Positions 33,892 to 42,887 of a stretch of 64,000 nt of DNA are shown piece after piece. Source of the stretch: an uncultured Fibrobacter sp. (GTDB taxonomy: Bacteria; Fibrobacterota; Fibrobacteria; Fibrobacterales; Fibrobacteraceae); contig NZ_CAMVDO010000001.1 of assembly GCF_947166265.1 (NCBI RefSeq), positions 248,001 through 312,000 of the forward strand. Direction: 5' to 3'. The translations under genes and the position numbers were made by a program. Position 1 is the stretch's first letter; each line of letters opens with the position of its first letter. The notes under the pieces are model-generated. The model was not told where the DNA came from. It was given only the letters and a program-made list of their open reading frames with translations, and did not search any database.

Positions 33892-34329
33892 TTACTTTTC
33901 GATTTCGTACTGAGCAACGACGTTGCCTTCGTTGTCGAGAGCGCGGACAACGTTTTCGTCGCGCTGGAGAGTGAGGTTGGCCTTTTCACCCTTGGCAGTG
34001 GTCACTTCGACGGACATGGAACCATCGGCGTTCTTCACGGCGGCGATGGAGTTGCCCTGGGCATCCTTTTCGAAGTAGCTGTCGCCAGAAGCGAGCGGGT
34101 TAGAACCGGTCCAGAATTCAACGGTGTTCAGCACGAGGCCGTCCACGAGGAACAAGCAGATGCCGTACACCGGCAGCCAGAACAGGAAGAAGTGAACAAT
34201 GGAGTTGATCCACTTGTCACCCAGGGTGCCGTTCCAGTCGTGAAGCTTGTTGAAGCAAGCGTTCTTGCCATAGCAGCCGGAAAGAACGATCATGCCGGCG
34301 CAGAGAAGGGTTACAATACCTTTTTTCAT
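33892..34329 (-). CDS. DUF3332-family lipoprotein
   Basis: 145 residues with lipobox VLSGC (Cys19). KNACFNKLHDWNG, a hydrophobic segment WINSIVHFFLFWLPVYGICLF and VEFWTGSNPL are the recognisable DUF3332 features. The C-terminal half is a small beta domain (ADGSMSVEVTTAKGEKANLTLQRDENV). CAAGGAGT precedes the ATG. Codon use is strongly biased, suggesting high expression. The role of DUF3332 is unknown. It is monocistronic: its own AT-rich promoter region upstream, a strong terminator downstream. Confidence 0.85.
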   Translation of the reverse strand: MKKGIVTLLCAGMIVLSGCYGKNACFNKLHDWNGTLGDKWINSIVHFFLFWLPVYGICLFLVDGLVLNTVEFWTGSNPLASGDSYFEKDAQGNSIAAVKNADGSMSVEVTTAKGEKANLTLQRDENVVRALDNEGNVVAQYEIEK

Positions 34330-34651: not shown

Positions 34652-36175
34652 ATGGGTAATAGATTTGATATGATGAAACTGACTGTCGTTGCTTCTTTGC
34701 TTGCGGCCGCAACTGCCTTCGCAGCCCCCAAGCCGCTAACCGTATGGATTATGCCCAACGGAGCCTCGCCCCAGGAGACTCTCGAGAAAAGACTTGACCT
34801 GTACACCCAAAAGACCGGTATTCCCACCAAGGTCCAGGTTCTGGACTGGGGTGAAGCATGGAACCGAATTACATTAGCCCTATCCGGTCAACAGGAAGCC
34901 CCCGATGTTCTGCAATTAGGAACAACCTGGATTCCCTATTTTGCTTCGCGCAACGAAATCAAGCCCCTGAATGAATTTTTAGGAAGCATCCAACCCGACC
35001 GGTTCGTCCCGGTCAGCTGGAACACGACGCATATCGACGAAGATACCGTCATCTATTCCATTCCTTGGTTCATCGACATTCGCGCCATTCTTGCGAACCA
35101 GAGACAGCTCAAGGAACATGGCATCACCAAGGAATCCGTGAGCACCTACGAGGGCTTTAGGGAAGCCATTCGCAAGGTTAATGCCAAGGACGAAGTTCTC
35201 GAAGACGGCGCCCATGTTCGCGGATATGCATTCCCGGGCAAGAACGACTGGAATATTCCCCACAACTTCGCCCCCTGGATCTGGAGCAACGGCGGATCGT
35301 TCATCAAGAAGGACGAGAACGGCAAGTGGAGCGCAAACATCCTTTCCAAGGAAACACTCACCGGTATTGCAAGCTACCTGCATTTCGTGATGGACTCGTT
35401 GGTTTCAACAGACGCCCTGCAAAACAACACAGCCCAGATTGCGCAACAGTTCAATAACGGCGAACTCGCCTTTATCGTGAGCACCTCCGAAATCGTGATG
35501 CAGACCCGCATCCACGGTAGCCAGGGAGGCCTTTCCAACGCCCGTATCGGAAGCGATAGCGTTACCGTCATACCGATTCCGAGGGGTAAGACCGGCAGTG
35601 TCAGTTTCATCGGCGGTTCGAACCTGGCTATCCCAGCAAAGAACAATCGAGCCGAAGCCGTCAAGCTTTTGCAGTTCCTCGTGAACGATGAAAACCTCGA
35701 CGCCTACACCAAGCAAATCGGCATGTTGCCCCCCTCCAAGAACGTATTGCAGGACTGGGCAAAAGACGAAAACTATAACGTACTCGTCAACGCCCTCGAA
35801 ACAGGCCGCGCCTACGTAGCCATTCCCGAATGGGGCGAAATAGAGCAGTTACTGGGAGCCATGTTCAGCACCGTGTGGGAACAGATGGAAATTCCCTCTC
35901 TCTATTCCGAAGAAAAGCTGTACGAGATTTTCCAGAACTTCACCGTCGAAATCGACAAGAAGTTGAACTACCCCTCAGCAAACATCATGACCCTCGCCGA
36001 ATTCAAGGAAATTTGGAGTGCGGTCAACGCGACTTCCGAAAAGAAGCCTGAAGTCGCCACCACGGATTCCACGGAAAGCGCCGCCGAAAGCAACATGCAA
36101 AAGGCTCCGTTCGTTTTCGTGACAGTCCTTATCCTCGGGTTCCTGTTCGCGTTCTTCCGCAAGAGAAAAAAGTAA
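34652..36175 (+). CDS. Solute-binding protein (ABC family 1) with C-terminal membrane anchor
   Basis: 507 residues. A signal peptide (cleavage after ATAFA, residue 24) leads into a family-1 extracellular sugar-binding fold: LTVWIMPNGASPQETLEKRLDLY, PDVLQLGTTWIPYFASRNEIKPLNEFL, YSIPWFIDIRAILANQ, FIGGSNLAIPAKNNRAEAVKLLQFL. A Thr/Glu/Ser-rich linker (about 460-484) precedes a transmembrane helix and basic end (FVFVTVLILGFLFAFFRKRKK). Normal binding proteins lack such an anchor. No ABC permease or ATPase is adjacent. The next gene, 20 bp on, is a Cache-type diguanylate cyclase. This suggests ligand sensing rather than uptake. Confidence 0.85.
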   Translation: MGNRFDMMKLTVVASLLAAATAFAAPKPLTVWIMPNGASPQETLEKRLDLYTQKTGIPTKVQVLDWGEAWNRITLALSGQQEAPDVLQLGTTWIPYFASRNEIKPLNEFLGSIQPDRFVPVSWNTTHIDEDTVIYSIPWFIDIRAILANQRQLKEHGITKESVSTYEGFREAIRKVNAKDEVLEDGAHVRGYAFPGKNDWNIPHNFAPWIWSNGGSFIKKDENGKWSANILSKETLTGIASYLHFVMDSLVSTDALQNNTAQIAQQFNNGELAFIVSTSEIVMQTRIHGSQGGLSNARIGSDSVTVIPIPRGKTGSVSFIGGSNLAIPAKNNRAEAVKLLQFLVNDENLDAYTKQIGMLPPSKNVLQDWAKDENYNVLVNALETGRAYVAIPEWGEIEQLLGAMFSTVWEQMEIPSLYSEEKLYEIFQNFTVEIDKKLNYPSANIMTLAEFKEIWSAVNATSEKKPEVATTDSTESAAESNMQKAPFVFVTVLILGFLFAFFRKRKK

Positions 36176-36195
36176 CGCATTAAGGTTGGGTGAGT

Positions 36196-37968
36196 ATGCC
36201 AGCGGTCGCGCTTACAGATTTCTCGCGAAGCATCGTATTCAAGGTACTTCTCGTATTGATAATCGCCATGACGCTTGTCGTCACGGGGAGTATCTTTATT
36301 TTCAACAACAGGCAAGCCGACCTGTTGGTTGAATGGAGTTACAACAACAACGAAGCGCTGATCAACCAGATTGCCACCATGTCGACCAACGAGATGAAGC
36401 AATTTGGTGACCGACTCTCCCTGCTCGCCAAGACTTCCGAAATCCAGAGCATGGACCCGACCACCGCCGCCAGTTACATCAAGAGCTTCAACATCTCGTC
36501 GCTCTTCATTTCCGGCGAAGCCATTACTTTGTACGACAAAGACAACAATTTTGTCTGCGACAATTCCATGGTCGGGCTCCCAACCGAATCGCCCTACCCC
36601 ATTGATTTTTCTCGCATCACGCCTCACCGTCCGTACATAACGCCATGGTTCAGGGATTCCAAGGACGCCCCGCCCAAAAGGATTTTCGGCATCAACATTT
36701 CCAACCGCGCCGTAGGTGACGGAAGCCTCATTGCGAATTTCTCGCTCCGCAGACTCTGGACAAATTTCCCGGATTACAAAATCGGCAAGAGCGGTTTCCT
36801 GGTCGCGGTAAACGGCAAGGGAGACATCCTTTACCACCCGGATCTCAAGAAGTGGCTTACCGACACACACAATATCACCGAGCTCGGCTTCAAGAAAATG
36901 GACCCGCGCACCTACAAGGTCGAAAAGGCGAAGTTTGAAGTTCTGGAAGACAATGCGTCGTACCTGATTAACTACCGCTACGATTCCAACTACGACTTCG
37001 GACTGATCGCCTGCCAGCCCAAGAGTGAAATCGACGAGCTGATTTCTTCGGCGACACAGGCCAGTATCGCCATCCTCATCATCTCGATCCTGATTATCCT
37101 TATTATTGCCGGATGGATGTTCTATATGCTGGGCGTTCCCCTGAACAAGCTGATCCAGCACATCAAGTTGATCACCGATGGCAACCTCGACATCAACGAA
37201 TTCAGTGTCGGCTCCCGTAATGACGAAATCGGTCAGCTGGGTAACGCATTCAACACGATGCACAACACGATCAAGCGGCAGATCGGCGAACTCAACGCCC
37301 ACAGGGACATGCTGGAACAGGAAGTTCGCGAACGCACCAAGGATCTGGAACTGGCTAACCAGAAGCTCGATCTGATTTCGAAGACCGACGAACTGACGGG
37401 ACTGCCCAACCGCCGCGACATGAACGAGACCATCGCAAACGAGGTCGGACGTGTTCAGCGTACGCACAAGCCGTTCTGTTTCATATTTATCGATATCGAC
37501 CATTTCAAGAACATCAACGACACCTACGGACATGCCTGCGGTGACCTTATCCTGAAATCTGTCGCCCAAACCGTTCGCACCCTGTTGCGCAAGTACGACG
37601 TTTTCGCACGCTACGGCGGCGAAGAATTCCTGACGCTGCTTCCTGAAACTGACCTCGAAGGAGCGGCTGTCGTTGCCGAACGTTTCCGCAAGAAGATTGA
37701 GCAAATGACCGTTCATTATGCGGACTTCACCATCAAGGTGACGATTACCCTGGGCGTATCGCGCTACGACGAACGCCTTGGTGCAGACCGAAGCATCCAG
37801 ATGGCGGACAAGGCGCTTTACCGAGGCAAGGAAAGCGGACGTAACCAGGTGATCGTATGGGAACCGGAATGGGTTACCGAAGCCGACTATGAAGCGGCAG
37901 CAATCGAGCTTGCGGCACAGAAGAAAAACGCCGAAAGCAATGCCGAAAAATTGAACGAAGAAAAATAG
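36196..37968 (+). CDS. Membrane diguanylate cyclase (Cache-HAMP-GGDEF)
   Basis: 590 residues from the ATG at 36196; a GTG six bases earlier is possible. An N-terminal transmembrane helix, a periplasmic double-Cache sensor (about 40-285; PYITPWFRDSK, GKSGFLVAVNGKGDILYHP), a second helix (AILIISILIILIIAGWMFY), a HAMP region, a coiled coil and a GGDEF domain (about 400-555) follow in order. The signature is GGEEF (474-478), an active form; the metal-binding FIDIDHFKNINDTYGH is complete. It should make cyclic di-GMP. No RxxD inhibitory site is evident just before GGEEF. It is coupled with the anchored solute-binding protein, a probable ligand-sensing partner. Confidence 0.92.
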   Translation: MPAVALTDFSRSIVFKVLLVLIIAMTLVVTGSIFIFNNRQADLLVEWSYNNNEALINQIATMSTNEMKQFGDRLSLLAKTSEIQSMDPTTAASYIKSFNISSLFISGEAITLYDKDNNFVCDNSMVGLPTESPYPIDFSRITPHRPYITPWFRDSKDAPPKRIFGINISNRAVGDGSLIANFSLRRLWTNFPDYKIGKSGFLVAVNGKGDILYHPDLKKWLTDTHNITELGFKKMDPRTYKVEKAKFEVLEDNASYLINYRYDSNYDFGLIACQPKSEIDELISSATQASIAILIISILIILIIAGWMFYMLGVPLNKLIQHIKLITDGNLDINEFSVGSRNDEIGQLGNAFNTMHNTIKRQIGELNAHRDMLEQEVRERTKDLELANQKLDLISKTDELTGLPNRRDMNETIANEVGRVQRTHKPFCFIFIDIDHFKNINDTYGHACGDLILKSVAQTVRTLLRKYDVFARYGGEEFLTLLPETDLEGAAVVAERFRKKIEQMTVHYADFTIKVTITLGVSRYDERLGADRSIQMADKALYRGKESGRNQVIVWEPEWVTEADYEAAAIELAAQKKNAESNAEKLNEEK

Positions 37969-38002: not shown

Positions 38003-38036
38003 AACCCACCCGCCTATGAACTAGCGGGTGGGTTTC
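38003..38036 (+). terminator. Terminator after the diguanylate cyclase gene
   Basis: An 11-bp stem AACCCACCCGC / GCGGGTGGGTT with a 10-base loop. The T-tract is short (TTTCGTT). Confidence 0.65.
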
Positions 38037-38080: not shown

Positions 38081-38154
38081 TCGGGATGACTGAATTCGAA
38101 TCAGCGACCTCTTGAACCCCATTCAAGCGCTCTACCAGGCTGAGCTACATCCCG
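38081..38154 (-). tRNA. tRNA-Pro (anticodon GGG)
   Basis: 74 bases on the minus strand. The acceptor CGGGATG pairs with CATCCCG over seven pairs, with discriminator A. The D arm is GCTCAGCCTGGTAGAGC, the anticodon stem CTTGA/TCAAG with loop ATGGGGT, and the T arm contains TTCGAAT. The C1-G72 pair is usual for bacterial proline tRNAs. CCA is not encoded. Confidence 0.93.
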
Positions 38155-40369: not shown

Positions 40370-42754
40370 CTACATGACTTTGGGGCGGCCGGTCTGCATT
40401 TTCATTAGCGTATCGACAATTTTATCCCAGTGTTCTAGCGCCACCTTGCCAATAGCCGGGTCGTACATGACACCGAGATTTTTCTCGATTTCCTTGCGGC
40501 AGTAGTCGAGCGACATCGCATCGCGGTAGACGCGCTTACTCGTCATGGCATCGATCGAATCCGCAATGGCAATGATGCGGGCACCGATAGGAATTTCTTC
40601 GCCCTTGAGCCCCTCGGGGTACCCGCGACCGTCAAAACGTTCATGGTGATGCAGCACGATCTGCACCAATTCGTGCGTATAGTTCGACTGCATCAGGATC
40701 TTTGCACCAATGATCGGATGCTGCTTGATAATCGAGAATTCGTCATCGGTCAGCTTACCCGGTTTTCCGAGCACATTGTCGCTGATGCCCATCTTGCCGA
40801 TATCATGCAGGTGTGCCGCATGCGTAATCAACGATACCGAGGCCTCAGAAAGGCCAAGGAAACGCGAGAGCAGTTCCGTATACGCCTTGACGCGTTCGGA
40901 ATGGTGTGCCGTATAGGAATCCTTCGCTTCTTCCACCGAAATCAGGCAGGTAATCAGATCCTTCAGGTTCTGGTTCTCGTTGTTTTCGGTCGGTTTGTGA
41001 TAGCGCACCTTGTCGCGGTACATGTTCAAGTCCGCTTCCATTTTCCAGTCGCTAATGGACTTGCGGATACCCGAGTCACTGCGAAGCCTACTTTCACCGA
41101 CGGCAATCGACAAATGGTAAAGGGCGTCCTTGTTGTATTCCTCGATATTCCTTTGCAGGCTGGAATACAGCAGGAACAGGGAATCCAAAGGCGCCTTCGT
41201 CACTACGGCAAATTCGTCACCGCCGATTCTAAAGCAATTCCCGTGAAGTCCATAAGCTTTCTTGATGGATTTTCCAGCTGCGATAATCAGGGCGTCACCC
41301 GCCTGATGCCCGAAGGTATCGTTTGCGTACTTGAGCCCGTTTAGATCCATCAAGACCATCGTCCAGTTCCCGGCATCGGAGTCTTCCATGGCAATACTTT
41401 TGAGCAGTTCGTCAAAGGCAAGCCTATTTTCAAGCCCCGTCAGAGCATCCGTCGTCGCGACATCTTGCAGATGTTCGTTCATCACGCGGAGCTTGCTGTT
41501 AATTTGTTCAAGCTCGAACGAAGTTTCGCGAATGAAGGTCGCCATACGGGCCGCAAGCGGAAGCCTAGTCGTCATTTCGGAGCGGATATCTTCTGTTTTT
41601 TCAGGAGTTTTCTCGACTGCGGCACCTTCACGCATCGAAGCGATGACAAGCGTAATGTTATGCTGGTTCAAGTGTCCCTTTTCGCGCAGGAATTCCCCAT
41701 GCGAAAAGAAGCCCGTACTCGAAGCAAGCCCCTTGAACGGAGTGATTTCGTAAGTCGGTTCGCGCTGCGACCAGAACGCCTTTCGCGCCGCACACGAGAA
41801 AATGTGTTGCACCTCGGGCCCAAACTGCCTACATTTTTCACTTTCTTCCCTGATGCGGTCCACGATCAATCCCGGCTCACCATACGAAAGCCTGATAATG
41901 GAACCTTCATCGATATCGGAAGACATCGTGAGTGAACCGTCGGGATTACTCGAGCCCGGTGCGCGGACGATAGAGACACCATTATGCTCGTACAGCATCG
42001 GGAACTCAAGCGCATTGTAGAAGAAATTCTGGTCGTTCTTGATATTCAGATACTTGTTATAAACTTCGTAGGCGGGAATTCCTCCCAGCTCGTAAAGGAT
42101 GTTCCCTTCGGAACGGGTTACGTGGAAATTACGGCCGATCGGTTTCCATCCGCTAATCTTGCGGGAATCGACATAAAATTCGGGACCGCCAAAGAACAGC
42201 ACCAAAAGGCCAGATCTTGTATAGCCGCCTTCTGACGAGAAAATGCAAGAATTCGGGCTCGTAATATCGGGAGAACAGACGATGCCACCGAATACTTGGA
42301 TATCGGATGCAAGGTCATCGAGCCCTTCGCAAAGGGACGTTGTCGAGAACGGGGAGATACAATGGTAAATTTCGACAGCCTTGACCCATGGATTTTCCTT
42401 GGTCACATTGACAATATGCCGTGCGATTCCACCGACAGATTCCCGATTATAATCATATTGGCGAACCGTGAACTTGCTCGTCGGCTTTTCGAAAATAACG
42501 GCAGATACAGAAATATCCGTAGAGACTTCACAATCAACGATATTGCCACTGGTAGAATTGCCCACCCAGGGCACATCGGGAAAGAACCTTTCCAGGCAGT
42601 CCCAAACCGGCTTCAGCTTTTCGGGTTCCAGAATCGCCGAATGAATCTGGAAATACATTGTCGGGGAACCATGTTCCTTATACCATTTGCTGAACAGGGC
42701 GATTTCTGTTTCAAACGAAACAACGTCTTTGTAGTTAAAGATTTTGTTTTTCAT
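40370..42754 (-). CDS. FIST-GGDEF-HD-GYP protein (bifunctional cyclic di-GMP enzyme candidate)
   Basis: 794 residues from the ATG at 42754; an ATG 13 codons earlier overlaps promoter-like DNA. Order: FIST_N and FIST_C sensory domains (about 20-375; VPWVGNSTSGNIV, VFGGIVCSPD, SCAARKAFW), a short helix, GGDEF (about 420-570; DLNGLKYANDTFGHQAGD, active-site GGDEF near residue 508), and HD-GYP (about 600-780; HDIGK near 651, HHHERFDGRGYPEG near 710). FIST domains are thought to bind small ligands such as amino acids. Both a cyclic di-GMP synthase and a phosphodiesterase with intact motifs are fused, without membrane anchor. Confidence 0.92.
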   Translation of the reverse strand: MKNKIFNYKDVVSFETEIALFSKWYKEHGSPTMYFQIHSAILEPEKLKPVWDCLERFFPDVPWVGNSTSGNIVDCEVSTDISVSAVIFEKPTSKFTVRQYDYNRESVGGIARHIVNVTKENPWVKAVEIYHCISPFSTTSLCEGLDDLASDIQVFGGIVCSPDITSPNSCIFSSEGGYTRSGLLVLFFGGPEFYVDSRKISGWKPIGRNFHVTRSEGNILYELGGIPAYEVYNKYLNIKNDQNFFYNALEFPMLYEHNGVSIVRAPGSSNPDGSLTMSSDIDEGSIIRLSYGEPGLIVDRIREESEKCRQFGPEVQHIFSCAARKAFWSQREPTYEITPFKGLASSTGFFSHGEFLREKGHLNQHNITLVIASMREGAAVEKTPEKTEDIRSEMTTRLPLAARMATFIRETSFELEQINSKLRVMNEHLQDVATTDALTGLENRLAFDELLKSIAMEDSDAGNWTMVLMDLNGLKYANDTFGHQAGDALIIAAGKSIKKAYGLHGNCFRIGGDEFAVVTKAPLDSLFLLYSSLQRNIEEYNKDALYHLSIAVGESRLRSDSGIRKSISDWKMEADLNMYRDKVRYHKPTENNENQNLKDLITCLISVEEAKDSYTAHHSERVKAYTELLSRFLGLSEASVSLITHAAHLHDIGKMGISDNVLGKPGKLTDDEFSIIKQHPIIGAKILMQSNYTHELVQIVLHHHERFDGRGYPEGLKGEEIPIGARIIAIADSIDAMTSKRVYRDAMSLDYCRKEIEKNLGVMYDPAIGKVALEHWDKIVDTLMKMQTGRPKVM

Positions 42755-42887
42755 TCTACCATATCCCGATATTTGAGAATAACTTACATCCAATATAAAT
42801 TATATAAATGGAAATTTACAATTTCGAACAAAAATTGCTTAAAAATTTTATTCCAAGTTGGAATATTCTAATGTTCGGGAAATTACA

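Follow-up and report, generated by a model that had tools for sequence, protein, structure and literature searches.

Solute-binding proteins (SBPs) that drive cyclases are established (PMC9602780). In the NspS-MbaA system of Vibrio cholerae and Sinorhizobium meliloti, the SBP gene adjoins the gene for a membrane GGDEF protein, and the occupancy of NspS sets the enzyme activity of MbaA (PMC8967002). The CuaD-CuaS-CuaR system of Ruminiclostridium cellulolyticum has a signalling-dedicated cellobiose SBP, distinct from the importer's own SBP and encoded beside a membrane sensor with a HAMP domain (PMC10384115). The same paper cites XylFII-LytS of Clostridium beijerinckii, in which, as summarised there, an SBP serves as the co-receptor of a membrane sensor in a 2:2 complex. 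The c-di-GMP level of Fibrobacter succinogenes S85 on cellulose exceeded that on glucose about 2.5-fold, and what its cyclases sense was described as unknown (PMC6851124).

The window, i.e., the whole analysed stretch of 64,000 nucleotides from an uncultured Fibrobacter sp., carries an SBP gene followed by the gene of a membrane cyclase. No earlier report of this pair was found in the open-access literature. We consider it rather probable that the two genes form a dedicated beta-gluco-oligosaccharide receptor in which the SBP gates a dCache cyclase, and the initial annotation, which had coupled sensing by the SBP to the cyclase, is supported.

Organisation of the two genes

The SBP gene (34652-36175, + strand, as are all features of the pair given below) encodes a 507 aa protein of the beta-glucoside/cellodextrin class. 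Its first description as a solute-binding protein with a signal peptide agrees with the matches to SBP_bac_8 (1.8e-26) and SBP_bac_1 (6.6e-24), both above the Pfam cut-off, and with an N-terminal signal peptide of 24 aa, MGNRFDMMKLTVVASLLAAATAFA (34652..34723), whose cut between AFA and A was read by eye. No lipobox was present in the SBP proteins of this type (SBP1) in the genus. The solute-binding domain (SBP_bac_1/SBP_bac_8, beta-glucoside/cellodextrin class) was placed at 34730..35971 by structure-database sequence matches and conservation, and a variable linker (35972..36103, delimited by conservation) leads from it to the anchor. Conservation at linker residues 461-484 is the lowest in the protein (0.27), as expected of a putative tether.

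The protein ends with a predicted membrane helix (about residues 485-502) and the basic tail RKRKK (503-507), together covering 36104..36172 in an N-out/C-in orientation. At the level of sequence, this helix is shown to fix the SBP in the inner membrane. The same C-terminal arrangement, a hydrophobic stretch and then a basic tail, described initially for the window alone, was found in 61/61 SBP1 proteins and 16/16 proteins of an anchored paralogue (SBP2), and in none of 13 ABC-type relatives; the anchor is not a chance feature. The ABC-type class was defined by a neighbouring permease in 12 cases and by hand in one (L076), and the anchor was not used as a criterion. The initial annotation had named homologues with the same anchor beside ABC permease genes as evidence that would speak against it; none of the 13 ABC-type proteins is anchored, and no anchored SBP adjoins a permease.

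The cyclase gene ends at 37968 and starts within 36190..36198, either at GTG 36190, which gives the longest frame, or, more likely, at ATG 36196. The distance from the stop codon of the SBP gene is 14 nt with the former start and 20 nt with the latter, so that the spacing of 20 bp noted initially is true if translation begins at ATG 36196. Homologue hydropathy placed the first membrane helix at 36232..36300 (helix 13-78 in the model) and, together with the model, the second at 37054..37131. Between them lies the periplasmic dCache sensor domain (36313..37053, from the fold search), which is the proposed docking surface for the SBP. It is followed by HAMP (37135..37272; PF00672, 2.4e-9) and GGDEF (37381..37848; PF00990, 1.1e-47), the latter with the active-site motif GGEEF (37615..37629), intact as noted initially, and the I-site RKYD of product inhibition (37588..37599), both read from the sequence. 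GGEEF and the RxxD of the I-site were both kept in all 66 related cyclases examined. With the GGDEF domain, the GGEEF motif and the I-site present, the partner is a predicted diguanylate cyclase.

Of the Cache-HAMP-GGDEF architecture proposed initially, HAMP and GGDEF were thus recovered above the cut-off, while Cache was recognised from predicted-fold matches, as the dCache_1 model matched the cyclase below the cut-off (6e-4). A structure model of the sensor built from 19 related sensors had a pLDDT of 80.7, and the top matches of the fold search with it include solved dCache ligand-binding domains (from 5e-9), among them those of Mlp24, Mlp37, PctA, DctB and an Aeromonas diguanylate cyclase (7k5n). 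By predicted fold, the sensor is thus a dCache domain, with a double PAS-like periplasmic fold following a long helix.

A 12-pair inverted repeat 3' of the cyclase (38003..38034) possibly marks the end of a two-gene transcript; the scan calls it a terminator of the opposite strand. Directly downstream of the pair, a tRNA-Pro (GGG) gene lies on the opposite strand (38081-38154, - strand). The gene of a large GGDEF protein, whose C-terminus looks HD-GYP-like by eye, lies at 40370-42793 (- strand) and is a second c-di-GMP gene 2.4 kb from the pair. The genome of the window has 31 GGDEF matches and one PilZ match, which leaves its c-di-GMP receptors largely unaccounted for.

Conservation and genomic context of the pair

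Two separate queries, the SBP and the periplasmic portion of the cyclase, were run against 126 genomes of the class. The cyclase gene was found directly downstream on the same strand at 83 of the 85 SBP1 places, i.e., the SBP gene adjoins a membrane GGDEF gene in the manner of the NspS-MbaA type. The two unpaired places are a contig edge (G040) and an SBP2-type protein (G129). The pair reaches beyond the genus of the window into several other genera within the family. In 91 genomes an anchored SBP, whether SBP1 or SBP2, occurred jointly with the sensor; both were missing from 31, and four genomes were discordant (Fisher p ~7e-25 for joint presence and absence, a value uncorrected for common descent). 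Four genomes of the genus lack both, and three genomes carry an anchored SBP2 with no sensor of this kind detected. Related cyclases that have no adjacent SBP1 were found in 13 genomes, thus such a sensor can persist alone or with a distant partner. The initial annotation had inferred the linkage from one adjacency, had proposed a survey of it and had counted a lack of co-occurrence elsewhere as contrary evidence; the 83 paired places contradict such a lack, and adjacency is no longer the sole basis of the linkage.

Several deviating loci were recorded. In G040, an SBP1-like gene and the sensor both run off contig ends (L101 and L102, on contigs C585 and C229) in an orientation as in the pair, and where GGDEF would be expected this sensor has CheA-like Hpt and HATPase domains. 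At one locus (L108, G031) SBP1 adjoins a cyclase with a strongly diverged sensor (~40% identity), a possible case of partner replacement or fast evolution. At another (L057, 6427-7990, - strand, G028) SBP1 is split into two overlapping frames by an apparent frameshift, an error or decay, and the downstream cyclase is intact. An open frame of 1429 aa containing the SBP in G042 resembled a fusion; this reading was rejected, as the DNA is GC-rich and the frame is apparently overextended.

Among the 70 pair loci typed for context, 55 lie beside a gene for a DUF3332 lipoprotein-like protein, two between aroA and dacB, and 13 have neither landmark, some of them owing to a nearby contig end. The pair persists in at least two genomic neighbourhoods that are unrelated to each other. 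In the window, the DUF3332 gene (33892-34329, - strand) is divergent from the pair, and it is conserved at most pair loci. Five solo cyclases examined form one fully supported clade and adjoin the same DUF3332 gene (the solo cyclases are L103-L107 and those of G078, G079, G083, G101, G103, G110, G113 and G116). The two pairs between aroA and dacB belong to G062 and G128 (L131 and L134). SBP2 (L039 6836-8437, - strand, and L061-L071), which has neither a cyclase nor a permease beside it, sits in the genus between the same two genes (dacB: peptidase S13 and amidase). As the pair in G062 and G128 and SBP2 occupy the same site, this site probably held the ancestral pair, and SBP2 would be the copy left there once the cyclase was lost.

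Likely ligand, proposed partner contact and origin of the putative receptor

The closest solved relatives of the SBP are the beta-glucosides-binding protein of Thermus thermophilus (7c63, 4.9e-64, residues 27-436) and CbpB of C. thermocellum (7x0i, 1.5e-54), and by sequence the whole two-lobed domain is assigned to their cluster. Thirteen cleft positions (N36, W66, W93, W139, D142, R144, W200, H204, N205, W209, W211, S323 and W394) do not vary among the 61 SBP1 proteins, and nearly all are identical in the ABC-type relatives. They include the tryptophans for sugar stacking and the acidic residue typical of the class: W66, W93 and D142 correspond, respectively, to the tryptophans of VLDWG and GTTW and the E of PWFSE, which were altered in Thermus variant structures. 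In SBP2 the cleft is changed (H204Q, N205Q and W209F). CbpB, in which tryptophans stack on the ligand, binds cellobiose to cellopentaose with KD values of 0.56-1.9 uM and laminaribiose with 10.7 uM (PMC9601137). Because both the cleft and the nearest solved relatives match binders of such sugars, SBP1 likely binds beta-gluco-oligosaccharides.

It is rather unlikely that the coupling is real and the ligand is not a cellodextrin, being instead another beta-glucoside, from laminarin or mixed-linkage glucan, or a cell-wall sugar. The class accepts several beta-glucoside linkages, including that of laminaribiose (PMC9601137), and in two genera the pair is flanked by aroA and by the gene of a D-Ala-D-Ala carboxypeptidase/amidase, which might hint at a cell-wall sugar. 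However, the cleft residues are those of cellodextrin and beta-glucoside binders, and the commonest context of the pair contains no cell-wall gene.

The contact between the two proteins was approached by modelling, evolutionary distances and residue conservation. The co-folding of the binding and Cache domains suggested initially was attempted as a read-through fusion of SBP and cyclase at in-frame loci (L090, L092, L094, L095 and L097), and it gave a poor model, with a pTM of 0.41 and the SBP half badly modelled. In the mirror-tree test the SBP distances followed those of Cache (0.88) and GGDEF (0.89) alike, therefore no specific co-evolution signal is seen. Of 26 residues conserved in the paired sensors, six (L74, L76, K96, N123, F138 and W188) are lost in the solo clade, compared with one to three in comparable clades and five to six in two single divergent rows; since the loss resembles that of the single rows, these residues are weak pointers to the docking surface.

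A dual input, in which the Cache domain binds a small ligand of its own and the SBP merely modulates the response, seems unlikely. Such binding is usual for dCache domains, among them the fold-search matches, and one clade of the cyclases lacks an adjacent SBP. Against it, Cache is the fastest-evolving part, the SBP and GGDEF domains diverging about half as fast, a difference that also favours the receptor reading, and the sensor position that we equate by eye with the canonical Asp for amino-acid binding in the pocket varies (N/S/E/T). A role of the SBP as a sugar store bound to the membrane in the periplasm, or as a chaperone for a cellodextrin phosphorylase, with the cyclase merely co-transcribed, appears very unlikely: an SBP2 paralogue with no adjacent cyclase does exist, but the linkage of SBP and cyclase survives relocations across ~80 genomes, and the two are jointly present or absent.

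No importer permease was found beside the pair in any neighbourhood typed, in agreement with the initial statement that no ABC permease or ATPase accompanies it; at two loci an unrelated-looking ATPase match (28-31% identity) lies more than 1.4 kb from the pair. No homologue of the MalF-type (CUT1) permease of the related ABC systems was detected in the ~80 genomes of the genus searched, while 23 genomes of the family, all from other genera, have one. The MalG-type search gave only weak, distant matches within the genus; the genome of the window had none. The protein does not conform to a CUT1 importer subunit, for which a permease is adjacent or present and the SBP is free or lipid-anchored and, like the ABC-type relatives, has no C-terminal helix. 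The nearest relatives of the SBP in sister groups, other genera of the family and among them genus g5, adjoin permeases and an ATPase, and the ABC loci of g5 also hold a GH1 beta-glucosidase-like gene (GH1 being a name assigned from sequence). A fully supported branch of the tree separates the ABC-type from the anchored SBPs. Descent of the SBP from the beta-glucoside/cellodextrin-binding subunit of an ABC importer is shown by sequence and tree together. A permease homologue and the pair are both present in several other genera (G062, G121-G126, G128 and G130), and the simplest history is that the importer SBP was duplicated, an anchor was gained and the importer was later lost in the genus.

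In F. succinogenes S85, the SBP FSU_1047, 31.3% identical to CbpB and up 1.25-fold on cellulose, was interpreted as part of an importer (PMC6851124), and in earlier work it was recorded for a cellulose treatment alone (PMC4619616). Its reported mass of 57.6 kDa, pI of 7.77 and hydropathy of -0.218 fall within SBP1, and the hydropathy lies outside SBP2. Matched by these values and the similarity to CbpB alone, FSU_1047 is probably the SBP1 of S85. The up-regulated cyclases named in the same report (PMC6851124) could not be matched to the pair. It is hardly credible that the SBP continues to supply an importer whose genes lie elsewhere and that its anchor is incidental, as in the published reading of FSU_1047 (PMC6851124) and as the shared or distant ATPases of such transporters would allow (PMC9601137), given the permease searches and the lack of permease neighbours at anchored SBPs.

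The pair of an anchored SBP with no importer and a neighbouring cyclase thus probably informs the cell of cellulose sugars. In the proposed receptor, the SBP would close on beta-gluco-oligosaccharides entering the periplasm during cellulose digestion, as its cleft and relatives suggest, and, once liganded, would dock onto the dCache domain of the neighbouring cyclase. The signal would then pass through the second membrane helix and HAMP to GGDEF, which, judging from its motifs, would make c-di-GMP under I-site feedback. Published measurements in the relative suggest that a cellulose surface would raise c-di-GMP. The anchor would hold the SBP near its receptor and remove the need for an importer. 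The pair is a concrete conserved candidate input for the c-di-GMP rise on cellulose (PMC6851124). If this is true, the published view of an SBP detected on cellulose as part of an importer would need correction.

Comparison with known systems

The pair would work like NspS-MbaA, CuaD-CuaS-CuaR and XylFII-LytS; NspS-MbaA is taken as an analogue, and the pair not as a member of its family. NspS is a periplasmic polyamine-binding protein for which the part of the source used here describes no anchor, while the SBP of the pair is of the beta-glucoside class and membrane-anchored; MbaA also has an EAL phosphodiesterase domain, whereas the Fibrobacter partner has GGDEF only (PMC8967002). CuaD-CuaS-CuaR differs in its lipoprotein SBP, its output through a histidine kinase and a response regulator, and the presence of an importer (PMC10384115). 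XylFII-LytS, as far as it is cited there, has a D-xylose binder of another SBP class and a histidine kinase output (PMC10384115). CbpB and the Thermus protein resemble SBP1 in the sequence of the binding domain and in the cleft residues; unlike it, they are importer subunits, and the matched region stops before the SBP1 anchor.

As a fuller account, tentative and in our view a little short of an even prospect, an importer SBP may have become a full-time receptor by gaining an anchor and coupling to a dCache cyclase, may have been duplicated (SBP2) and may have outlived the importer in Fibrobacter, which would link cellodextrin directly to c-di-GMP in cellulose-attaching bacteria; in one other lineage (G040) the SBP/Cache pair may instead drive a CheA-like kinase. 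The pair would clearly exemplify how the addition of an anchor makes a receptor out of a transport subunit. In comparison with the known systems, what is new is the C-terminal anchor, the pairing of a cyclase with an SBP of the beta-glucoside class and the loss of the importer throughout the genus.
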